This document shows positions 2 through 12,490 of a stretch of DNA of 44,923 nucleotides, piece after piece. The DNA is from Treponema sp. (GTDB taxonomy: Bacteria; Spirochaetota; Spirochaetia; Treponematales; Breznakiellaceae): the NCBI GenBank assembly GCA_009788065.1, contig WQSF01000004.1, forward strand, positions 23,465-68,387. The letters run 5' to 3'. The position numbers and the translations under genes were made by a program. Below the pieces are notes generated by a model. It did no database searches. It was not told where the DNA came from and saw nothing but the letters and a program-made list of their open reading frames with translations. The stretch's first letter is position 1, and each line of letters starts with the position of its first letter.

Positions 2-1375
2 TACTGGTTCCGCTCTTACGGCGTGCAGGACCCTGTAGTGCGCGTTAACCGCAAGAGTTCAGACGCGAGAACAAGCAACTGGCATGTACCGACAGGCAGA
101 GCCTATAATGAGCCGGCAGCTACCAGTACAGCCGCGGGCTGGGGCATGAACGATTTTAACAGGGCGTATTACCGCATAGAAACAGAAACAAAGGACGCTC
201 GGATTTATTACAATACCTTCGAGGGAACTATTGCAAACGGAGGCTCTGTAACAGGAGCGTGGAGCGGTACTGTTGCTGGTTCAAATTCAGGAGCAAATAT
301 ATTAGTTAATACGCCGGATATTACATTATATGTAGTAGAACAAGCTACGGCTTCCGCCAATAACACATACAGGACAGTAACAACAAGCGGCGGTACAACA
401 GCCGTGAATCATAATCTTGGCGCTAACGGAACTGTTGTGCAGGTTACTGTTTCTGGAACACCGTACTGGGTAAACGTTCAATCCGCTAATACAATAAGGA
501 TATATGAGACAGAAGCGCTGGCTATTGCCGGAAACGCCGGTTTTGAAATGGGCACAGGCGGACTTAATAACGCTAATTTTACAATGATTATTCCGGGTGG
601 ACCAGCAGGCTGGCAGGATGCATTTAGCGCTACAGCAGGTGAATGGGTAATGAAAAATTTAGTCCGCCGCCGGGGATCATCAAGCTATATTGTTTCAGAT
701 AACGGTTATGATGTAACCCGCACAATAACTGCAAATCATCGCGGGCTGCGCTCGTACAACAGAGATATACTAAAGACAGACTTATTACCCACAAGCTTCA
801 ATGTAACGTCTCCTTCTGGAACACAAATAACAAGCGGAGCTGAAAATTATTTTACTTACGAAAAACTGCAGGCAAGCAAAAACTATGTTACCGCTTTCGC
901 CCGCGTTGACAACTCAGGCGCAGGTACTTTTACAAGCACAAACGCGGCGGATAATTCACAGCGCGGATACGAAGGAGTATTCCGCTCTGTCATCGCTTTA
1001 AATCAGGCGTCATTTGGAGGCAATCTTAACGGTGCTAGCAATACTAATAATCCGATTATGATTCAAGGTTCAAACATTAAAAACGGAATGCCGAGTATAG
1101 CAGGCTTCCCAGTGCGCGATGCCGAGGAAACAGGAGACAACAGGTTTATTAAATTGTACTTTAGGGATAGTTTTACAGGAACAAATGCTACAATGACTTC
1201 AGGTCAATTCTACTGGGTTAGTTACGAGATATTGTCGCTCTGGTATGCCCTTAACTGCGGAAGGCGGGCAAGCGATAATGGTAACACCGGCGGCACTCAC
1301 ATGGGTCACGGAGATGTTAATAACTATCTTCTGTCCAGTTACGGCGAGCTGACTTACAGCAACAATCAACAGTAA
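2..1375 (+). CDS. Large exported protein, C-terminal part (5' end outside window)
   Basis: The frame is open to the window edge: codons before the GTG at 23 read YWFRSYG without a stop, so that GTG is not the real start. About 457 residues are visible. They are Gly/Asn/Thr/Ser-rich and beta-type, typical of surface or periplasmic proteins. The visible part aligns by eye with the C-terminal module (about residue 1556 onward) of the next gene. Matching pieces are VVRVNRK/FIRIRK, DARIYYN/NARIFYI and SIAGFPV/SIPGYPL, followed by FYWVSYEI/FKWITWEI. The 'ARIYY' strand resembles the chitobiase C-terminal-like beta domain, which is a weak inference. The stop TAA is followed directly by GGAGG for the next gene, so the two are probably co-transcribed. 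Function unknown. Confidence 0.8.
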   Translation, partial: YWFRSYGVQDPVVRVNRKSSDARTSNWHVPTGRAYNEPAATSTAAGWGMNDFNRAYYRIETETKDARIYYNTFEGTIANGGSVTGAWSGTVAGSNSGANILVNTPDITLYVVEQATASANNTYRTVTTSGGTTAVNHNLGANGTVVQVTVSGTPYWVNVQSANTIRIYETEALAIAGNAGFEMGTGGLNNANFTMIIPGGPAGWQDAFSATAGEWVMKNLVRRRGSSSYIVSDNGYDVTRTITANHRGLRSYNRDILKTDLLPTSFNVTSPSGTQITSGAENYFTYEKLQASKNYVTAFARVDNSGAGTFTSTNAADNSQRGYEGVFRSVIALNQASFGGNLNGASNTNNPIMIQGSNIKNGMPSIAGFPVRDAEETGDNRFIKLYFRDSFTGTNATMTSGQFYWVSYEILSLWYALNCGRRASDNGNTGGTHMGHGDVNNYLLSSYGELTYSNNQQ

Positions 1376-1386
1376 GGAGGAATAAA

Positions 1387-4300
1387 ATGAAAACACTTAA
1401 ATGTTTAATATTAATTTCATTGGCTGTATTTTTATTTTCATGCGATATGCCTCTGGCTCTTGGTTCCATGCTGGATTTACAAGGTCCTGTAGTAGAATTT
1501 ACAAGTCCCGCGCCTAGAAAAGCTGTAAGCCAGGATTTCTTTATTGAAGGAACGGCGGAAGATTTTTCGGGTGTTAGTACATTGCTCATTAAAGCGGAAA
1601 TAAACAATAATCAGTATCCAAAGCAATGGCGTTACGACAATGGAGGATGGGAGGTTTCCGATAATTTCGGGCAGACTTGGGTTTTTCATCAGGGAGGCGA
1701 GTGGACAGGATCGAATAAATCGGGAATATGGAAAGTGCCTGTAAATTTAGCAATAGACGGATTATCACCGGAAGACGGAGAATATCTGTTTATATTACAG
1801 GGGTGGGACACAGGCGGTTTTTCAGACGATAATTCTTATAAAACAAGAGTTTTAATATATGATGTTAATCCTCCCAAGGTAGAAGTAATAAATCCGTATC
1901 TTTATTCAAGACATGCTTCGTATGATTCTGATACAAATTTGTTTGACAATGCGGAATTACAGGACGTTCACGGAATAGACGAATCTGATAAAGTCAGCGA
2001 TAACGGAGATAAAAGAAGATTTGATCCGACATATATAGGCAAATTTATTACCCAGTCTTTCCAGCTTCAATGGCAAATAGAAGATAACCATGATATATGG
2101 TCAATTGACATCCGCTTTTACAGACACGATAAAGAAGTGGATGAAGATCATATAACAGTGTTGGATGATTCGGATTATATTTATAATTATCACAAAAATC
2201 TACCTCCGCCTCCGCCGGCTTTTGATTCTCTGGATACTGTCAGCCCCAACGGTACAATAACCGTTCCTGCATTGGACGGTACTGCCGGATTTTACGGCGA
2301 CGGCGGTGAATTAAAAAATCCAATAGACGGTAAAACAACAATTAAAGTTGTTACTATTTGCTATGATGCCGCCGGTAACGCAAATCAGGAAAAAACGATA
2401 GGCTATTTTGTTTATTGGCCTGCCGCAAACGAACCGTGGATTATTTATCCCGACGGAATGAACGTTCCCTCTCATTATGCAGGTAAAGATAAAAATGCTC
2501 TGGATGCAATGGTAAGCTCAGGCGATCTTTTAATGATATACCCGGGAAGAAGCGTAAAAGCGACAGCGTTCCACGCACACGGTCTAAAAGATGTTAAATT
2601 TAAACTTTTTAAATATAACGAAGCTACAGCAGATTATAGCGAAGAAGTTCTTGGAAGTGACAAAGACGGAAATCCGTATTCTAACATTACCTTGACAAAT
2701 CCTCCGCGTCCCAACGGTATGCCTTCTAACATTTTCCCATGGGAATTCACTCCTCCGCCTTCAACGGGTTATTATGTTGTAAGAGCGTACTGTTATTCTT
2801 ATTCAGATGTAGTAAGTGTTGAATATGCCGCTCTTTTCATGCTGCAGGATATTTCATTCCCGGATTTTCCAGAAGCGCCGAAACCTAGCGCGACAAAATC
2901 ACTGCACGAGTCTGTTAATACTTTTGATAATTCAATTACAATAAGCGGAATTGTGCGCGACGCTACCGATATAAAAAACCTGACTATGGTATGGATTAAT
3001 CCCGCGTCTGATAAATATGCCGCAATGAACCAACTGTCATATTTCCGTGAGAAAGATTATGAAGGGTGGAGAACAATTTTAAACGATCAGAGCATAGCTT
3101 ACGGCTCTTTTAAAACTGAAGGCATTAAAGATTCAACTAATCCAAACAAAGTATGGAAACTAAAACCAAATGATATAGGAATTGATAATGAGACAACAAG
3201 AAGGCAGTTTACATTTGAACAGAAAATATTATTAACCGAATTAAATATCGCGACAGGCGATCAGCCGTTTAATGAAAAATGGCGTCCTCTGGAAAGCCAG
3301 ATGTTTTTGTTCAGAGCGGAAAATCCCGACGGTAAAACTACTATTATTACATACGCGCCGCAGGGAGATACTCTGCCACCAAGGATATCTATAGATAATG
3401 TTACTGTAACAAGACCGTCAAATAGCGACGTATTAGTACCGGGTGAATACAATATAATAAACGCGCTTGAAGACGGTAATACAATCACAATTAACGGCAA
3501 ATGGGAGGAAGGATCGGCGGCATATCTGAATCCTGTTAATTACCTCAAACCCAGAATGAAATTTTATATAAACGGATATAATATTACAGGACTTACAGGC
3601 ACCGGTACAAGTATTAATATAGGACATACAACCGGTAACGATCAAGGCACGTTCACAGTTACAGGAATTCTTAGCAATGCCGCGGGAAATACGCTTGTCG
3701 CGGCAAGTTTAAAAGACACTCTTGTTGTAAATGCAGAAGTTACCGACATCGGAGGAAATTACGCCGAAGCGGGAGCTTCATGGCTTATTAAAAGCGATGA
3801 TTTAAAATTCCTTCGCGTTACAAGTACAAACCAGAGTAATACTTATACAACAGGCGTTACAATAGAAATTTTCTTTGAGTTTAACAAACCTGTAAAACTG
3901 ACAAATCAAAGCACCCCGGAGATAATATTGAACGCGCTGAACGGAAGTACAAGAGTAATCGCTAAGTACAAACAGGGACAGCAGATGGAAGACACGCGCC
4001 AGTATTTTGAATACACAGTAAAACCAGGTGATAATACCCCTACGAGTGAATATTTAAATGTAAGTTCTCTTGATACAGAAGGAATTCTTTGGTCTAACAA
4101 CACATATCCGTTTAGATGGGAGCATACCATGGAAAACGGAGGTAAGGAACATATAAGAATAACTGAAGTTACAGGTCATAATGGCGGTATACCTGCAGGT
4201 CAGACAGACTTTTACGCTCATGCTCTGCCTACTTCGGGAATGTATTCTCTTGTAGGAAGCAGAAATATTAAAATAGATACTGCTGCGCCTGGTTTTTCTG

Positions 4301-7020
4301 CGCCGACGGCAACTCCTGCCGGATGGCATACTGTTGGAGCGGAAATATTTATTAATGTTAAATTCTCTAAACCTGTAAAAGCTGGTACAGGTGCGAACGC
4401 GCCGTATCTTACCATCCTTGGAAGAAATACAAGTACAAATCCTGAGGATATACGCGTAAATAACGATATAATTACATTCAAGTACACCGTTGCCGCAAAT
4501 GATAATTCAAACGGAAACCCGCTTCAGATTACCGGAAGCGGAGGCGTGATAACAGATCTTGTAAATACTCCGATGGAGGGCAGTATAACAGGAACATTAG
4601 CGGGTATTTATATTGATACAATTACCCCCGCGGCTCCGACAGTAGAGATTAGAAGCGGCGGCAATATTATAAGCAATATAGTAAGCGGAAATACTGTTCA
4701 AGGGACATCTGGCGGAGTGGGGCTTACAACAGGAACAGGAAACCAATGGCCTACTGCGGGAAGCGCTCCTACAGATACTGTTAATAACTTAAGGAATCTG
4801 CAAACCATTTACTACAATGATTTGTCTCTGCAGATAACGCGAAGCGGCAGTACAACCGCGCAGGATTTAAACAAAATAGAATATTCTGTTAATTACGGCG
4901 CTGACTGGCAGGATTATTCAACAGGACAAAACGCCGGTACAGCGATTGCATGGGGAAGCTCAGCTCCAAACGGCGTATATCAGATAACGGCAAGACAGAT
5001 AGACTCGGCTGGAAATGTTTCCAACTGGGCAAGGCCTGTTACATTTAACTGGGATAAAGGCGATAATTTTGTTACAAGGATAGATTCGTTTACTCCCAAC
5101 GGAACATATACTTATAATTCCGTACGTCAGAATGATCAGGTTGAAATAGTGTTGCAGTTAAGAAAACAGATAAATATTACAGCGGCGCAGATTACGCTTA
5201 ACGCTGTAAACTCAGGCGGGAACGCTGTAACTGTGGCGCCTGTATCAACAGGGAATGTAGACAGATTAACATTCAGGTATAACGTCGCAAACGGTCATAC
5301 GACAAACGGCGCGAATCTTACTGTAAGTGCGGTGAGTATTACAGCAACAGACAGCACTAATGTTAATGTGACGGCTTTCGCAAGCAAACTGCCCGCAAGC
5401 GCCTTAATTTTGCCGGGTAAGGAAATAAAGGTTCAAACAGGAGGCCTGACTGTTTATAATAACGCGAATCCGAGTTTTACAGGAGGCGTATACACAAACG
5501 ACACTTACACGGCGACCTTAACTCTGGAGTACGCAAGGTACATTTACAAGAACACAGGCTCAATTACAATTGAACAGCAAAGAAACGAATACAAACTGCC
5601 TGCGGTTCTTACAGAAGCGCAGGCGGCAAGGTTCAGCGGTATTGCAGGTTTTAGCACATACTATACGCGTGGTACAAATGGGTATAACTATGTTGACGAA
5701 AATAACAGATCTGCGGACACAACACCGAAATACATATTGAATTATACAATTGATACATCAAGCGCGCTTAACCAGCCGACTACGAGTGGAACAGGCGGAA
5801 GCGTGATTCAACAGATGGCTGAAGCATTCAGGGTTGCGGAAAGCGTAGTAATTCCGGTCACCGCGGCGGCAGTAACAATTGTCAACAATACAACAACAGG
5901 AAGAGGGACTCTTAATGTAACGTTAACAGGTACAAACGCGCTTCAGGTTCTGGGAGCGAATTATTTAATTACAATCCCTGCGGATTTCGTACAGGACGAG
6001 CTGAGTAATCTTTCTCCTGCGATAATAGAACACAATATTAATATCGGCCAAGTATCGCGCCCATTTATCCGTATAAGAAAAACGCAGGATACAATTTCAA
6101 TTTCAGGTTCGCCAAGCACATCTCAACCGCGTCTTGTCGCTCATCAGCCGTTCCAGGCGCAGGTAAGAATGGACAGCCGTACCCCGAATGCCAGAATATT
6201 CTATATTGCTGCAAGCGCTGTAACAACGACAAATGCTGTTAACTGGAGTACATCCAGCGGTCCGACAGGTACAACTGCGGCTCCGGCGCAACCTGCAGAC
6301 CCGCGTACAACAACAGCAAACCGTGAACAATATTCAGCTCCCTTCTCGATTGGAACAGACAATGATTATCAGGGACTGCAGTGGTACGCGCGCGTAAAAG
6401 CAACTACATCAACCGCTGTGCCGCCTGCTAATACAGCAAATCTGTGGAGTGAAAATTCAGAACAAATGGCTTTCAAAACTGTAGTAACTTATGTAGCAAA
6501 CGGTATTGCTTCAGGCGATACCGGACAGCCGTTTGGTGACGGAGATCAACTCTGGATAAGAGGAGGAGACGCGATAGGTTCTTCTTCCATACCCGGCTAT
6601 CCGTTAACATGGGAAGATAACTGGATTGAAAGCAGTTTGCAGAATAAAAGAGCGGGAATCAGGCTGTTTACAAGAACAACAAGTGATAACACTAGTCTTA
6701 ACAGTTCAACATTTAAATGGATTACATGGGAAATAACCGTAGACACTTACTTTGACATTATCCTTGGAAGGGACACTGCATCTTCAGCGGATCAAGCATG
6801 GCAATACGGTCCAAGAGGATGGGCATATCAAAGAGCTGGATGGACATCGTTTAAACTTGAATCGCGTATTTTACCGGGACAACACCGCTGGCTTCAAAGC
6901 AATAGCCCGGATCCCGGTAAAGGTACGTTAAACTTCTCCGGCACTTGGATGGCAAGAAGCAATCTCAGTACAAATTATACGTTGTCTGCGCTAAACAAAG
7001 CCTACGATGGAGCGCCGTAA
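1387..7020 (+). CDS. Giant Ig-like-domain lipoprotein (1877 aa)
   Basis: The start is well set: GGAGG at 1376-1380 lies 6 nt before the ATG. The N-terminus has Lys residues, a hydrophobic stretch and the lipobox LFSC with Cys19, so a lipoprotein is predicted. The mature protein is a chain of beta-sandwich-like segments. An early segment has a phrase like VEFTSPAPRKAVSQ, as in bacterial Ig-like repeats. Two clear related repeats begin near residues 807 and 967 and share a 'G-x-x-I-x-I-x-V/F-x-F-x-K-PVK' strand followed by a 'YTV..GDN' strand. Further divergent copies may start near 1227 and 1350. The last roughly 320 residues match the upstream gene's C-terminus. No enzymatic motif was recognised. 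An adhesin or surface-scaffold role is inference. A strong terminator follows. Confidence 0.85.
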   Translation: MKTLKCLILISLAVFLFSCDMPLALGSMLDLQGPVVEFTSPAPRKAVSQDFFIEGTAEDFSGVSTLLIKAEINNNQYPKQWRYDNGGWEVSDNFGQTWVFHQGGEWTGSNKSGIWKVPVNLAIDGLSPEDGEYLFILQGWDTGGFSDDNSYKTRVLIYDVNPPKVEVINPYLYSRHASYDSDTNLFDNAELQDVHGIDESDKVSDNGDKRRFDPTYIGKFITQSFQLQWQIEDNHDIWSIDIRFYRHDKEVDEDHITVLDDSDYIYNYHKNLPPPPPAFDSLDTVSPNGTITVPALDGTAGFYGDGGELKNPIDGKTTIKVVTICYDAAGNANQEKTIGYFVYWPAANEPWIIYPDGMNVPSHYAGKDKNALDAMVSSGDLLMIYPGRSVKATAFHAHGLKDVKFKLFKYNEATADYSEEVLGSDKDGNPYSNITLTNPPRPNGMPSNIFPWEFTPPPSTGYYVVRAYCYSYSDVVSVEYAALFMLQDISFPDFPEAPKPSATKSLHESVNTFDNSITISGIVRDATDIKNLTMVWINPASDKYAAMNQLSYFREKDYEGWRTILNDQSIAYGSFKTEGIKDSTNPNKVWKLKPNDIGIDNETTRRQFTFEQKILLTELNIATGDQPFNEKWRPLESQMFLFRAENPDGKTTIITYAPQGDTLPPRISIDNVTVTRPSNSDVLVPGEYNIINALEDGNTITINGKWEEGSAAYLNPVNYLKPRMKFYINGYNITGLTGTGTSINIGHTTGNDQGTFTVTGILSNAAGNTLVAASLKDTLVVNAEVTDIGGNYAEAGASWLIKSDDLKFLRVTSTNQSNTYTTGVTIEIFFEFNKPVKLTNQSTPEIILNALNGSTRVIAKYKQGQQMEDTRQYFEYTVKPGDNTPTSEYLNVSSLDTEGILWSNNTYPFRWEHTMENGGKEHIRITEVTGHNGGIPAGQTDFYAHALPTSGMYSLVGSRNIKIDTAAPGFSAPTATPAGWHTVGAEIFINVKFSKPVKAGTGANAPYLTILGRNTSTNPEDIRVNNDIITFKYTVAANDNSNGNPLQITGSGGVITDLVNTPMEGSITGTLAGIYIDTITPAAPTVEIRSGGNIISNIVSGNTVQGTSGGVGLTTGTGNQWPTAGSAPTDTVNNLRNLQTIYYNDLSLQITRSGSTTAQDLNKIEYSVNYGADWQDYSTGQNAGTAIAWGSSAPNGVYQITARQIDSAGNVSNWARPVTFNWDKGDNFVTRIDSFTPNGTYTYNSVRQNDQVEIVLQLRKQINITAAQITLNAVNSGGNAVTVAPVSTGNVDRLTFRYNVANGHTTNGANLTVSAVSITATDSTNVNVTAFASKLPASALILPGKEIKVQTGGLTVYNNANPSFTGGVYTNDTYTATLTLEYARYIYKNTGSITIEQQRNEYKLPAVLTEAQAARFSGIAGFSTYYTRGTNGYNYVDENNRSADTTPKYILNYTIDTSSALNQPTTSGTGGSVIQQMAEAFRVAESVVIPVTAAAVTIVNNTTTGRGTLNVTLTGTNALQVLGANYLITIPADFVQDELSNLSPAIIEHNINIGQVSRPFIRIRKTQDTISISGSPSTSQPRLVAHQPFQAQVRMDSRTPNARIFYIAASAVTTTNAVNWSTSSGPTGTTAAPAQPADPRTTTANREQYSAPFSIGTDNDYQGLQWYARVKATTSTAVPPANTANLWSENSEQMAFKTVVTYVANGIASGDTGQPFGDGDQLWIRGGDAIGSSSIPGYPLTWEDNWIESSLQNKRAGIRLFTRTTSDNTSLNSSTFKWITWEITVDTYFDIILGRDTASSADQAWQYGPRGWAYQRAGWTSFKLESRILPGQHRWLQSNSPDPGKGTLNFSGTWMARSNLSTNYTLSALNKAYDGAP

Positions 7021-7047
7021 AATAACTAAAAACAACAAGCATTAAAA

Positions 7048-7081
7048 ACAAAGCCGCTTTCTCAAGCGGCTTTGTTTTTTT
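7048..7081 (+). terminator. Rho-independent terminator after giant lipoprotein gene
   Basis: A perfect 12-bp stem (ACAAAGCCGCTT, loop TCTC, AAGCGGCTTTGT) is followed by a run of T. It lies 28 nt after the stop codon at 7018-7020 and ends the two-gene lipoprotein transcript. Confidence 0.93.
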
Positions 7082-7100
7082 ATTTTTGGTAAATATTAAG

Positions 7101-7166
7101 AGGTGACTGTCACCTTTTGTTTGTTTTTTGGGTATTCTGAAGATAATTCACAGGTGACTGACACCT
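7101..7166. repeat. Palindrome pair, 51-bp period (array 1)
   Basis: There are two 15-bp palindromes, AGGTGACTGTCACCT (7101-7115, perfect 7-bp arms around a T) and AGGTGACTGACACCT (7152-7166, one mismatch in the arms). Their starts are 51 bp apart. The 66-bp block is 62/66 identical to 8002-8067, in direct orientation on the other side of the Rpn pseudogene. The bases just before it (TTTTGGTAAA..TTAAG) recur before the copies near 18229. Confidence 0.9.
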
Positions 7167-7177
7167 TTTATACTAAA

Positions 7178-7887
7178 CTACAATTTCGCTATTTCTTCAA
7201 TGGAGAGGCCTGTGATTTTTTTCACAAATTCAGGTGTTGAACCTTCGGCAAGCAGGTTACGAGCGATAGTTAATTTTTCTTCCTCGCGGCCTTTAATGCG
7301 ACCTTCTCTTAAACCTCTTTCCATGCCTTTTTCACGACCTTCTTCTTCGGCTTCTTTAGCGCGGACTTCTACAATTTCTTCGATGGTCAGCTCGTCTGTC
7401 AGCATATTGATTACCTCCGATCCATGTCTTTCCAGAAACTCTCTCAAAATATTATGCTCTACACAATATTTTACAGCATTTATGATAGATTCTTCAAGCG
7501 TTAAATATGCGTTAAACTCTTTTATTTTCTCTATAAAAAAACTGTAGCCATATAATGTTTCGCATTTCTTAAATATTTCAAGATTCCTGCCATGATTTAT
7601 GTTATATACCTGCACCGTTAATTCTAATGGGAATTCGTTGTTACTGGATTGCTTTAATCCTTGTATATCTTTGAATGCATTGGAAAGCCGCAGTTCCTGA
7701 CGGTCAGGACACTCATCCCTGCCGTTATACAAGACAATAAACTCCGGTGTAGGGATTTTTTCAAGCCTTTTTTGGTGGAGTTTTTCCCGGTCGATGATTT
7801 TTTCGTACACGCGCCCGATATATCCGGGGAACTGAAGAGCGCAGAGAAAACACTGTCCTTGTGATTTCTGTTAATTTTAAAATCCAT
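7178..7887 (-). pseudogene. Rpn/PD-(D/E)XK nuclease-family transposase, internally deleted
   Basis: From ATG 7887, with GGAGG 5 nt upstream, the frame gives an N-terminus containing KINRNHKDSVFSALFSSPDI. This is the usual opening of Rpn-type (PDDEXK-2 transposase) proteins. A few codons later the family's middle continues in another frame, as RVYEKIIDREKLHQK near 7810, and runs to the stop at 7178. The later part has IPTPEFIVLYNG, then 'LELTVQVYNINHG', and a charged C-terminus with repeated GREKG-type runs. From family knowledge, the missing segment of roughly 70-80 residues includes the catalytic Asp/Glu-x-Lys core, so the gene should be inactive. It sits between two 66-bp palindrome repeats. 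The downstream frame alone (7178-7810) may still be called as a gene. Confidence 0.85.
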
Positions 7888-8001
7888 AAAAACCTCCAGC
7901 TATATATGGCGCGGGCGCGCCGAAAAGCTTGCTCGAGAATGAATAAAGTTTGATTTTTTTTACTGTTGTTATAAAATTTTAATGTTTTGTAATCAATTAA
8001 G
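7888..8001. other. Non-coding stretch upstream of the Rpn remnant
   Basis: It holds the remnant's Shine-Dalgarno sequence, a GC-rich inverted repeat at 7908-7921 (GGCGCG-GG-CGCGCC), then AAGCTT and CTCGAG palindromes at 7925-7937, and an AT-rich run up to array 2. No gene is seen. Confidence 0.6.
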
Positions 8002-8067
8002 AGGTGACTGACACCTTTTGTTTGTTTTTTGGGCATTTTGAAGATAATTCACAGGTGACTGACACCC
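8002..8067. repeat. Palindrome pair, 51-bp period (array 2)
   Basis: AGGTGACTGACACCT at 8002-8016 and AGGTGACTGACACCC at 8053-8067 start 51 bp apart. The block is a near copy of 7101-7166 (four differences in 66) in the same orientation. It ends about 33 bp before the likely ATG of the next gene. A possible -10 TATAAA (8069-8074) touches it. Confidence 0.9.
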
Positions 8068-8100
8068 GTATAAATGATAGAGTGTTTAATAGGAACTATA

Positions 8101-9573
8101 ATGCAGAACGAAAACGCCGTGTATCAAAAAGTTGTAGAGTCTCTTAAACGCCGAAAAAGCAGTACTGTAGCGGATATCGCGGCGGCGACGGCGCTTCCTC
8201 TTTCTGCGGTCAGCGAACTTTTGCCTAAGGCGGCGGACGAATATTCAGGGCATTTGCGCGTAACTGAATCAGGTGAAATTCTTTATTATTTTCCCAACGT
8301 TTTTTCGAGCCGTTACAGAAGTTTTAGCGCAAAAATAAAAAAACTGGTTTCAAGGTTTACAGTATTTTTTAAGAAGGCGTTGGTTCTGTTATTTAAAATT
8401 TGGATAATGGTTATGCTCATCGGGTATTTTATTTTGTTTCTGCTAATCGCTCTTGCGAGCGTCTTTTTGTCGGTCGCCGCAAGATTAAACAACAACGGAT
8501 CTGGTACAGGAGGCTCAAACAGTGAAGGAAGTTCGTTCAGTTTCGGATTATTTGACATTTTGTTCAGGATTTGGTTTTATTCAGAAATAACAAAACCATT
8601 CAATAATTACGAAGATAGATATGATAAAGTGCCCCAAAAGCAGAAAAATCCAATGCACAAAGCCATTTTCTCATTTATTTTTGGAGAGGAGGATCCTAAT
8701 ATAAATTGGGATGATCAAAAAAATAAAGCTGTTATTTCTTATATTCAATCAAATAAGGGTGTTATATCGCTCGTTGAATATATGACATTCAGCGGTCTTA
8801 ACAGTCTTGAAGCGCAAAAAGAGATTCTTTCATTTTGTTCTAAATTTGAAGGAAGTCCCGAACTTACGCAGGATGCTACAATTGTTTACAGGTTTGATAA
8901 ACTTTTATTGCGCTCGGATAATAATAATTTTAATGAATTATTACCGCCAATAAAAAGACTTAAAATATTTTCTGTTAATTCAAAAACAAAAAATATTGTT
9001 TTTACGTTAATAAACACGTTTAATCTTATTTTTGGCGGTTATTTTTTTTATCAATCTTTCGCGGCAGGGCAGTTGTTATCCGAAGAAAGTTATCGCTCTG
9101 CATCGAATATTTACGCCTATGTTCATTTATTACTGGGTTTGATTATGCCTGACCCGCATAATTTAATTAGAATTGTTTTAGGGCTGGTTCCGCTGTTATT
9201 CTCGTTTTTTTTCTGGATTATTCCGCTAATAAGATTTTTTAAGGAAAAGAAAGAGAATGAAAATAATAAATTACAAAATTTTAAAATATTTGGTTTTAAT
9301 AAAATCTGGTCATTACTTAAGAATATTGATAAATTTATTTTCAGAACTCCGGTTAACGAATGTAAGGTACGAGATTTTAACGAGGCGGCGCAAATTGTAA
9401 TTAATGATATCGGCGTAATTTCTATGCCTGAAATAGAAATTAATGAAGAAGGAAGAGAAATTTATTCATTCAACGAACTGGAAAAAGAAAAACAGGCTTT
9501 AATTAATTACAGGTTATCGATAGATACAAATAAAACAAAGATCGGAAATACAGTATTTGACAGCAGCGACTGA
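8101..9573 (+). CDS. Membrane protein with winged-helix-like N-terminus
   Basis: ATG 8101 is preferred over ATG 8074 because AGGA at 8091-8094 is 6 nt upstream, giving 490 residues. Residues 1-60 look like a small helical/winged-helix module (a 'VADIAAATALPLSAVSELL' helix pair, then a beta hairpin ending ILYYFP). Basic residues and a long hydrophobic segment follow (about 90-125), then a Gly/Ser-rich loop. Next is a second soluble part beginning 'AIFSFIFGEEDPN' that again ends in a 'IVYRF' hairpin, so it may be a second winged-helix copy. Two more hydrophobic segments lie near 300-325 and 360-390. I recall similar uncharacterised proteins in cyanobacteria with an 'FSFLFGDGDPN'-like motif. Function unknown. 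The stop codon is one base from the 3' end of the opposing tRNA-Arg. Confidence 0.8.
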   Translation: MQNENAVYQKVVESLKRRKSSTVADIAAATALPLSAVSELLPKAADEYSGHLRVTESGEILYYFPNVFSSRYRSFSAKIKKLVSRFTVFFKKALVLLFKIWIMVMLIGYFILFLLIALASVFLSVAARLNNNGSGTGGSNSEGSSFSFGLFDILFRIWFYSEITKPFNNYEDRYDKVPQKQKNPMHKAIFSFIFGEEDPNINWDDQKNKAVISYIQSNKGVISLVEYMTFSGLNSLEAQKEILSFCSKFEGSPELTQDATIVYRFDKLLLRSDNNNFNELLPPIKRLKIFSVNSKTKNIVFTLINTFNLIFGGYFFYQSFAAGQLLSEESYRSASNIYAYVHLLLGLIMPDPHNLIRIVLGLVPLLFSFFFWIIPLIRFFKEKKENENNKLQNFKIFGFNKIWSLLKNIDKFIFRTPVNECKVRDFNEAAQIVINDIGVISMPEIEINEEGREIYSFNELEKEKQALINYRLSIDTNKTKIGNTVFDSSD

Positions 9574-9688: not shown

Positions 9689-12490
9689 CTACCTTAACAG
9701 CGATGAATTATCATTTCTATTAAAACGAAGAGCTATATCATTGGGGCTTTCCAAAGCGACGTTTCTTATCGATCTGTTTGCGCCCATTTCAAGAAGGACA
9801 GAAACTAAATTCGGAGTTCCGTATCTTGCGGCAAGATGTAAAATTGTGTTTCCCGAACTGTCTCTGGAATTTATCGCCCTTCCCGAGAAGAGCGCTCTTA
9901 TGCAATCTTCACCCTTTGTGAAAGCGATTTCGGCAGGGCTTTTATTATCAACAGCAGTCTGGAAAGGATCCGCTCCTGCCTCTGCGATTATTTTAGCAGA
10001 TTCAAACATATCCATGTCAACCGCAAGGCGTAATGGAGTTTTACCGTTACTGTCAACAGTGTTTATTCTGCCGCCCTGATTTACGATAGTTCTTATTATT
10101 ACGTTATCGGCTCTTTCAAGGAGAGCCACATGCAAAGCGGAATTTCCGAAATCATCCGGGATATTAATTCTGTTATCTTCAAGAAGCGTAGAAACCATTC
10201 TTGTCGATATGCTCAATGACACCTGAAAAGGAGTTCTGTTTCTTGTGTTACGCGCATGAATGGATACTCCTGTTTTTAACAGCATATTCACAAGATCCAT
10301 ACGTTCCATTCCGACCGCGATATGAAGGGGAGTGTCTCCCCTTGTATTTCTGGTGGATGTATCAGCTTTATTCTGCGTCAATTTTTCGATAGAAGGAATT
10401 AAGCCGCCCCTTACAGCTTCCATTAACGGAGTGTTGCCGTCCATGTTTCTTACTTCAAGATTTGCTTTCTGCCTGATTAAAAGTGTTTCAATCTCTGACA
10501 TTCCGAGTATTACTGCGTCATGAAGCGCGGTATTTCCGTTAAGTGAATGTCCGTTAATGTCGATACCGGCTGAGAGCAGGAATGTGGCGGATATAATCGC
10601 GTTCCAGCGGACAGAAGCATGAAGAACAGAATTGCCCTGAGTGTCTCGCGTATTCAAATTTGCGTTATTATCAATAAAGACTCTTATTGTAGAGGGGCTG
10701 TCGCTTTTTATCGCGTAGAATAGAGGCGTTTGTCCTGTTGCGTTAGGTGTATCGACAGGTATACCGCTTCTGATTATCAAAGAAATCGCGTTGTTAAATC
10801 CCCATTCCGCTGCGTAATGCAGCATTGTATTACCAAGACCGTCTCTCGCCTGAATGGTGGTTGAGTTTACCATCCATTCACGCATCCCGTTGATGCCGCC
10901 GAGAGCAAGATAAAGAGGACTTTGACCCGCCGCATTCAACGCAAAAATATTTGCGTTACGCGAAACAAGGAACTCTCCGCTTTCTCTTTGATTTAACCTG
11001 ACAGCTATATGGAGAGCCGTCTCTCCATCTCTGTTTCTGGCATCGACAAGAGCGCGCTGCTCAAGAATTTTCGCGATTTGTTCTGAATTTGCCCTGTTTC
11101 TTACCGCGGAGTGAAGCATTGTATTTCCGGAGCTGTCTCTCTGGATAACAGTTTCTGGAGTTATTAAAAGATTAAATGTTCCGTCATTCGCTTTTGCGGA
11201 AATATCAAAAGGAGTTGTGCCTGAATTGTCGTCAGCGAATATTTCTGAGCCGTTCGCCAATAAGATGGGAATAAGGGCTGTGCGGTGATCCTGCACGGCA
11301 AGATACAAAGGAGTTTTACCGTTTATATTTCTGATATGAACATCAGCTCCGCCTTTTAATAACGCCCTAACGCCGTCTTCTGAACGGTTTAAAGTAATAG
11401 CGATATGAAGCGGAGTGTCGCCGTGATCGTCACGAAGATTCGGATCGGCGCCTCTTGCAAGAAGCATTGTCGCGACATCGTTATAAACATTGGGCGGAAT
11501 TCCTGTATGAAGCGGCGTATTGCCTCTTGCGTCTTTCGCGTTTACATCAGCGCTGTTATCAAGAAGCATTGTAATAATATCGATATTTCCGATTCTTACG
11601 GCTTCATGCAGAGCTGTAGCGCCTGAAGTGCTTTTTACATTAAGGTTGACCTTTTTTTCGAGAAGGAAAATTATTAAACCTGTATAATTGTCTATTACCG
11701 CGTAATGAATTGGAGTGATGCCTTCGTTTCTGCGGATGTTATAATTCGCGCTTCGCACCGCAGGACCGAAATAATTAAAAATCGGGTTTTCGGAAACGCC
11801 TCCTAAAAGGATAAGTTGTTCTGCAATCGCAAAATGATTTCTGGAATTTGTTCTTTCAAAAGCGTAATCAAGAGCAGTCTTGTCGTCATTATCTTTTTTA
11901 TTAATTAATGCAGGGTTAGTTGAAATTATGGAAAGCGCTTCAGACACTGCGGTTTGATTTCCTGAAATAGCCGCCATATGAAGAACTGTTTTTCCGCTGT
12001 TATCCGAGGAATCAATAGAATTGGGCGTAAGTATCGATCTAAAAAGAGATGAGCCTCTGGCAAGGGATAAAACCGCCGCTGTTGAATTATCATAAGCCGG
12101 TATCTGCTGATGAATATTCGCGCCGCCTGCGGTCAGCACTTGAGCGACTGTGGGATCTCCGTTTTCAATACAAATTCCTAAAGGGCTCTGCCCCTCATTG
12201 TCAAATACATTGGGATTGGCGCCTAAGGCTAAGAAAAAAGACGCAAGCTGCGCGTCTCTTCGTTCAGCGGCATAATGTAAAGGCGTTTTTCCGTCAGGAT
12301 CGACAGCGTTAACATCAATTTCACCCATGAAATAACTTCTCGCCGAGTTATCACCCGAGGACAATAACTTGAAAACAAGAGCTAATGTATCGACAGGCTC
12401 CTCTTCGGGAGTGCTTTTACAGTCTGCGGCAAGCAGAGCAATTGCCATTAAAATGATCAACGGCGCGCTAAAAAAAGATACCTTTTTCAT
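9689..12490 (-). CDS. Giant exported ankyrin-repeat protein (933 aa)
   Basis: The N-terminus MKKVSFFSAP plus a hydrophobic core and '..LLAADC' suggests export, possibly as a lipoprotein with Cys24. Asp at -1 makes the lipobox poor, so signal peptidase I cleavage is also possible. The rest is about 25 ankyrin units of 33 residues. Each carries a 'xGxTPLHxA' turn (for example DGKTPLHYAAERRD and RGDTPLHIAVGMER), with few non-repeat residues. Many units are preceded by RD or RN and alternate in type (GNTMLH then GETALH/GQTPL), hinting at a 66-residue duplication unit. Ankyrin stacks bind proteins. The predicted site here is the periplasm or membrane surface, not the cytoplasm. There is no clear Shine-Dalgarno sequence. 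The partner is unknown. Confidence 0.93.
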   Translation of the reverse strand: MKKVSFFSAPLIILMAIALLAADCKSTPEEEPVDTLALVFKLLSSGDNSARSYFMGEIDVNAVDPDGKTPLHYAAERRDAQLASFFLALGANPNVFDNEGQSPLGICIENGDPTVAQVLTAGGANIHQQIPAYDNSTAAVLSLARGSSLFRSILTPNSIDSSDNSGKTVLHMAAISGNQTAVSEALSIISTNPALINKKDNDDKTALDYAFERTNSRNHFAIAEQLILLGGVSENPIFNYFGPAVRSANYNIRRNEGITPIHYAVIDNYTGLIIFLLEKKVNLNVKSTSGATALHEAVRIGNIDIITMLLDNSADVNAKDARGNTPLHTGIPPNVYNDVATMLLARGADPNLRDDHGDTPLHIAITLNRSEDGVRALLKGGADVHIRNINGKTPLYLAVQDHRTALIPILLANGSEIFADDNSGTTPFDISAKANDGTFNLLITPETVIQRDSSGNTMLHSAVRNRANSEQIAKILEQRALVDARNRDGETALHIAVRLNQRESGEFLVSRNANIFALNAAGQSPLYLALGGINGMREWMVNSTTIQARDGLGNTMLHYAAEWGFNNAISLIIRSGIPVDTPNATGQTPLFYAIKSDSPSTIRVFIDNNANLNTRDTQGNSVLHASVRWNAIISATFLLSAGIDINGHSLNGNTALHDAVILGMSEIETLLIRQKANLEVRNMDGNTPLMEAVRGGLIPSIEKLTQNKADTSTRNTRGDTPLHIAVGMERMDLVNMLLKTGVSIHARNTRNRTPFQVSLSISTRMVSTLLEDNRINIPDDFGNSALHVALLERADNVIIRTIVNQGGRINTVDSNGKTPLRLAVDMDMFESAKIIAEAGADPFQTAVDNKSPAEIAFTKGEDCIRALFSGRAINSRDSSGNTILHLAARYGTPNLVSVLLEMGANRSIRNVALESPNDIALRFNRNDNSSLLR

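Follow-up and report, generated by a model that had tools for sequence, protein, structure and literature searches.

The window, that is, the whole stretch of 44,923 nucleotides analysed here (G000:C4:23465-68387), begins with two neighbouring open reading frames (ORFs) on the same strand, one at 2-1375 that has no 5′ end and one at 1387-7020 that encodes 1,877 aa. They are hereafter called gene 2 and gene 3, respectively, and their features, in window coordinates, are the following.

2-1375, plus strand: 3′ part of gene 2 (457 aa), the start of the gene lying upstream of the window
26-1372, plus strand: C-terminal module of gene 2 including its insert, placed by the profile-profile match to the gene 3 module and by alignments
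389-616, plus strand: insert of about 75 residues in the gene 2 module, with a relative elsewhere in the gene 2 copy of contig C22
1376-1386, plus strand: intergenic gap of 11 bases that separates the two genes and contains a GGAGG ribosome-binding-like site, read directly
1387-7020, plus strand: gene 3, ORF of a 1,877-aa lipoprotein
1387-1446, plus strand: signal peptide and lipobox-like FSC (Cys 19) of gene 3, from the sequence
1447-6051, plus strand: stalk of gene 3, an estimated ten or so Ig/FN3-like beta-sandwiches, from AlphaFold2 of residues 21-1200 and linker-like motifs
6052-7017, plus strand: C-terminal module of gene 3, 322 aa, two beta-sandwiches, from AlphaFold2 and VIA-align
7044-7079, plus strand: terminator-like hairpin just 3′ of gene 3, 16 pairs followed by a T-rich tail, from a consensus scan

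Reading the contig upstream of the window, we located the whole of gene 2 at C4:18405-24839; counted from the ATG chosen here, its product has 2,144 aa and starts with a signal peptide and a lipobox-like TTC. Genes 2 and 3 are probably co-transcribed. The signal peptide and the lipobox-like FSC of gene 3 agree with the original prediction that the second gene encodes a lipoprotein, and 58 of 61 family ORFs have a lipobox-like Cys close to their start according to one regular expression. Every Pfam or NCBIfam match of the two genes falls below the curated cut-off. Gene 1 precedes gene 2 and lies outside the window; its 1,676-aa product contains an array of Big_7 domains (7 stretches, E 1.1e-50) and ends, by eye, in a barrel-like region with a terminal Phe. 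The gene 1-2-3 cassette is found twice in the source genome, on C4 and C22, the second copy of gene 3 (C22:618-6407) showing 45% identity.

Further downstream, the window holds two direct-repeat copies, each some 70-75 bases long (7097-7172 and 7998-8068), with GGTGACTG(T/A)CACC hairpins, which flank a 210-aa minus-strand ORF (7178-7810) as if forming a small mobile unit. For the 499-aa gene at 8074-9573, which follows the pair, a look-alike was recognised by eye at L064:15766-16500 downstream of the G104 pair; no Pfam family was found for it at E up to 0.01. Finally, the minus strand at 9689-12490 encodes a lipoprotein-like protein of 933 aa with ankyrin repeats (Ank_2, 18 stretches, E 4.8e-150).

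Relationship between genes 2 and 3

From the window, the two genes had been thought to end in the same module while being otherwise different, and a variable surface family made by module swapping had been proposed. Pairwise BLASTP relates gene 2 to gene 3 only weakly (E 0.025, 20/67 residues identical). Relatives were gathered from 145 family genomes (13 of them match gene 3 and 16 the gene 2 copy on C22, in some cases only locally), and 13 gene-2 C-termini were compared with 12 gene-3 C-termini as profiles, the gene 3 fragment of G042 being excluded. Although BLASTP barely detects them, the two C-termini align significantly in this comparison (probability 99.8, P 6.7e-28, 240 columns). The C-terminal module common to genes 2 and 3 is real, as predicted. 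The motifs that had been quoted for it belong to the second protein; at the corresponding positions the first reads PVVRVNR, DARIYYN, SIAGFPV and FYWVSYEI.

The likeness extends over the whole genes. Full-length profiles of gene 2 and gene 3 give a single collinear alignment, which spans 1,552 columns at 18% identity (P 5e-109); proteins no longer than 1,500 aa were dropped from these profiles, so that 9 of 13 gene-2 and 12 of 13 gene-3 sequences were retained. When gene 2 was split into 8 segments, all 8 had their best match at the collinear position of gene 3, and the N-terminal segment was among the two strongest of the matching segments (P 4.8e-26). The notion that the two genes are otherwise different is thus refuted, the whole of gene 2 also encoding a lipoprotein, homologous to gene 3 end to end. 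On the strength of these alignments, genes 2 and 3 are old tandem paralogues, and their common ends would reflect the old duplication of whole genes, not a swapped end piece; the genes seemed otherwise different because the window edge cuts gene 2. The case shows how full-length paralogues, when cut by a window edge, can come to resemble a swapped module.

Module swapping is contradicted by this collinearity and also by the paralogue clades in domain trees. The trees, obtained with a quick method from 62 proteins (31 rows for gene 3 and 23 for gene 2), recover gene 3 as monophyletic whether built from the C-terminal module (95%) or from the N-terminal domain (98%). Sequences of gene 2 are monophyletic in the C-terminal module tree (99%), and their N-terminal domain needs 2 changes, which are weakly supported. 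After removal of duplicate ORFs via identical tails, which was done for the counts of end classes and of gene order alike, 84 distinct family ORFs were considered: 61 with both ends, 14 with the C-module only and 9 with the N-domain only. N- and C-terminal class are concordant in 53 of the 61 two-ended proteins, and the 8 disagreements all concern distant families (f7, f22 and f35) with low scores. The one-ended ORFs are mostly split or at contig ends, with the exception of a few long proteins of distant loci that have the N-domain only. An N-domain without a detected C-module is seen in L136 (1,809 aa), L139 (2,542 aa, at a contig end) and L085 (2,233 aa, weak scores); the C-module lacks an N-domain only in truncated, split or contig-end ORFs.

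These data make it extremely improbable that the C-terminal module is a mobile domain recombined onto otherwise unrelated surface proteins. That reading draws on the window, which shows the C-terminus of gene 2 only, and on the small insert, whose relative (C22:8744-8932, 50% identity, E 5.4e-6) is placed differently, so that two gene 2 copies carry it at differing sites. It is opposed by the full-length collinearity, the clades, the class concordance and the gene copies themselves, which share no long exact DNA match. Indeed, the longest one among the four gene copies of the source genome is just 25 bases, and gene conversion among these copies was rejected on the same account. Along gene 3, the identity among close sequences is also uniform. 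As to the insert domain, no Pfam family over the cut-off was found and the best PHROGs match has E 0.041; a look-alike was seen by eye in the gene 3 module of G104.

Distribution and gene order

The combined module profile has matches in 21 of 392 genomes of the phylum, and a contig scan yielded 22 loci, including one in Treponema bryantii XBD1002. A gene-2-type ORF lies directly upstream and on the same strand for 30 of 41 gene-3-type ORFs, the window's own pair not being counted. Five of the remaining 11 touch a contig end (L083, L085, L094, L104 and L138); in L090 the ORF upstream matched both C-terminal models, with scores below the threshold used; and L132, L133, L134, L136 and L139 represent distant families without gene 2 directly upstream of gene 3. 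Gene-2-scoring neighbours are found downstream of gene 3 in L136, L138 and L139, as is an 821-aa neighbour in L132; these three or four distant loci (L132, L136, L138 and L139) have either a reversed order or an ambiguous class. Genes 2 and 3 constitute a real family of giant lipoproteins, paired and so far uncharacterised.

Gene 1 is commoner than the pair, occurring in 33 of the 145 family genomes. It is present in all 12 family genomes with more than a local gene 2 or gene 3 match and in 11 of 12 further module-bearing genomes, the exception being G076 and some of the matches being partial. Its position varies: 7 of 40 gene-2-type ORFs (several of the 40 start at contig ends) have it as their immediate upstream neighbour, and it lies about 6.7 kb upstream of the pair in T. 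bryantii and about 1.1 Mb from the pair in G028. A working link of gene 1 with the pair is possible.

Predicted structure of the module and the stalk

The structure of the module was predicted with AlphaFold2 using window 5977-7017 and 43 rows (mean pLDDT 78.7, pTM 0.80). The model consists of two beta-sandwiches, the first FN3-like and the second CBM20-like. With VIA-align, the first half matched FN3 and Ig domains (6x3a, Z 7.0, model 25-169), and the second half (model 135-320) matched the CBM20 structure 2z0b (Z 7.0, 107 aligned, rmsd 3.1) and two others, 8x8k (Z 6.3) and 1cqy (Z 5.9), with 90-107 residues aligned; the best Z of 7.0 is not significant, values below 8 lying under the trust level of the tool and possibly reflecting merely a common arrangement. 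Foldseek with the module model gave no match at E 0.001 among PDB or viral models, and the module profile gave none against PDB sequences at E up to 1. The second half of the module may resemble CBM20 starch-binding domains in fold, at a level below the trust of the tool, but the module has no PF00686 match: none of the 43 module sequences has one at E up to 0.1. The source genome likewise yielded no match to PF00686. In hhalign, the module compared with 13 spirochaete CBM20-like stretches (drawn from 17 matches, 11 of the stretches exceeding the Pfam cut-off) gave P 0.26. Membership in CBM20 thus failed by sequence.

AlphaFold2 of gene 3 residues 21-1200 returned an all-beta model (pLDDT 70.3, pTM 0.46), which we read with moderate confidence as a beta-sandwich chain. 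This model has 231 hits in the PDB at E 0.001, with TM-scores of 0.09-0.16 among the matches listed, and these are taken as generic beta-sandwich chains. The Ig-like repeats originally ascribed to the second gene are in keeping with such an Ig/FN3-like stalk. By sequence, the stalk has sub-threshold matches (20-23 bits) to the OmpL47-type domain (NF047446) and to the Big_13 and Big_5 Ig-like families. The NF047446 scores, 20.3 for P0002, 22.3 for P0003 and 22.7 for P0005 (none is listed for P0004), fall short of its cut-off of 40 bits; the likeness to OmpL47-type proteins and to Big_13 and Big_5 is sub-threshold only, genes 2 and 3 remaining below the curated cut-offs.

The shared end had been suggested as a possible ligand-binding, sorting or polymer-binding domain. 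The first role could apply. That the module is a sorting or secretion signal and not a binding head seems very doubtful: its extreme C-terminal position and its beta-sandwich fold would suit such a signal, but the proteins have a lipoprotein-like N-terminus, the module comprises two domains (at least 232 residues across the family, up to 520 with inserts) and, as described above, it occurs without the N-domain only in incomplete ORFs. Moreover, no sorting-domain model matched; T9SS-type C-terminal sorting domains (NCBIfam) were found neither in P0001 and P0002 (E up to 1) nor in P0003-P0005 (E up to 0.1).

Poly-G tracts and proposed role of the pair

In about 686 kb of loci there are 7 G/C runs of at least 13 bases, 6 of which are within gene 2 (13-16 bases; L071:9058-9073, L094:2312-2327, L069:9287-9301, L072:8359-8373, L074:6818-6832 and L084:1-13) and 1 about 310 bases upstream of it (L070:4078-4091). 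The count of 6 includes the first bases of contig L084; these and L074 were scored outside the family in the run scan although they lie within gene 2, and duplicate loci were removed by a hand list. Three of the seven tracts share one place and hence are not independent, and some contig-end tracts, e.g., G141 C11, may be sequencing artefacts. At three G15 tracts the gene 2 frame is open on either side, and at two G16 tracts it is broken; the frame of gene 2 also breaks at nine T in G028 and, in L099, at no homopolymer. Poly-G tracts are more typical of exposed, switchable proteins, and the state of the frames suggests that gene 2 may be switched on and off by slippage in one related genus.

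As a mark of the gene 2/3 family, poly-G is weakened by the many tracts that the same genomes hold elsewhere: each of eight genus-g23 (termite-gut) genomes searched has 80 to 937 overlapping 12-G matches. The tracts that share a place, the possible artefacts and the L099 break weaken it as well. The source genome has one 12-G match, and its gene copies contain no G/C run of 7 or more. Poly-G is abundant genome-wide in g23 and G042 (genomes G117, G065, G524, G521, G141, G042, G094, G132 and others), and at a few loci, by eye, tracts lie near the signal-peptide starts of apparent transport proteins. In the available portion of PMC7864442, T. pallidum surface genes such as tprL are described as poly-G controlled, with slippage, and the gene 2 tracts fit slippage of this type. 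Compared with that account, the likeness to tprL-type genes consists in homopolymer G tracts at treponeme surface protein genes; the difference is that the tracts are within the coding frame of gene 2 and belong to a related genus, not to the source genome.

We lean towards the view that the pair encodes lipid-anchored, Ig-stalk adhesins of the outer membrane with ligand-binding heads, the genes being tandem duplicates kept adjacent. Following an old tandem duplication, genes 2 and 3 would have been retained as an adjacent pair. Each product would be exported and then lipid-anchored via its N-terminal cysteine, the long Ig/FN3-like beta-sandwich stalk would carry the two-sandwich head at the C-terminus, and the heads, held off the cell, would bind a glycan or another ligand. 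The two proteins may act together, as the constancy of their pairing suggests. Against this view as a whole stand the CBM20 likeness of the head, which is below the trust level and failed by sequence, the head being no more conserved than the stalk, and the distant loci with a reversed order, an ambiguous class or long N-only proteins.

The length of the chain bears on their location. A beta-sandwich is roughly 4 nm long, and about twelve of them would span some 50 nm, exceeding the usual width of the periplasm. This estimate, together with the poly-G tracts in gene 2 of the related genus, common as such tracts are elsewhere in those genomes, speaks against the proteins being inward-facing, periplasmic structural or spacer lipoproteins and not surface adhesins. 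We regard a periplasmic role as rather unlikely, while giving it some weight: many treponemal lipoproteins are periplasmic, the surface location of the pair is one that we infer, and conservation is even along the chain, the identity of gene 3 being uniform over its length (0.36-0.53 per stretch among four close sequences) and its head no more conserved than its stalk.

If the pair does consist of surface adhesins, then most likely, by analogy, it works like the Lig adhesins of Leptospira. The available portion of PMC7821625 presents LigA and LigB as lipoproteins with long Ig-like domain arrays, encoded by duplication-derived genes and shown on the surface; their first domains are nearly identical and their ends differ, LigB having a large C-terminal extension. 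Set against that portion, genes 2 and 3 are alike in being related by duplication and in encoding spirochaete lipoproteins with Ig-like arrays, and they carry the lipoprotein signal expected in the Lig family (FSC in gene 3, TTC in gene 2). They differ in having diverged equally and anciently at both ends, in that Lig domains are Big_2, and in that surface exposure and matrix binding, both features of the Lig family, are putative for their products. Membership in the Lig family was rejected, Pfam scans of P0001 and P0002 (E up to 1) and of P0003-P0006 (E up to 0.1) having found no Big_2.

A more elaborate arrangement, which we consider improbable, would be a three-part apparatus in which gene 1 provides an outer-membrane base or display partner and genes 2 and 3 form a heteromeric fibre whose tips bind glycans; in certain lineages of the termite gut, poly-G slippage (G15 open, G16 broken) would switch gene 2 and thereby alter the make-up of the fibre. 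The available portion of PMC13067680 describes the outer-membrane coats of large termite spirochaetes, and in it the words lipoprotein, adhesin and surface protein are absent. By title and start of abstract, no paper was found concerning the gene 2 or gene 3 proteins.

The pair is large and old within the Spirochaetota, yet it is named by no Pfam or NCBIfam model above cut-off. Since the named strain T. bryantii XBD1002 possesses it, its location and function could be tried outside the uncultured symbionts. Should the ligands of the heads be plant or host glycans, the pair would be a candidate for the attachment of gut spirochaetes.
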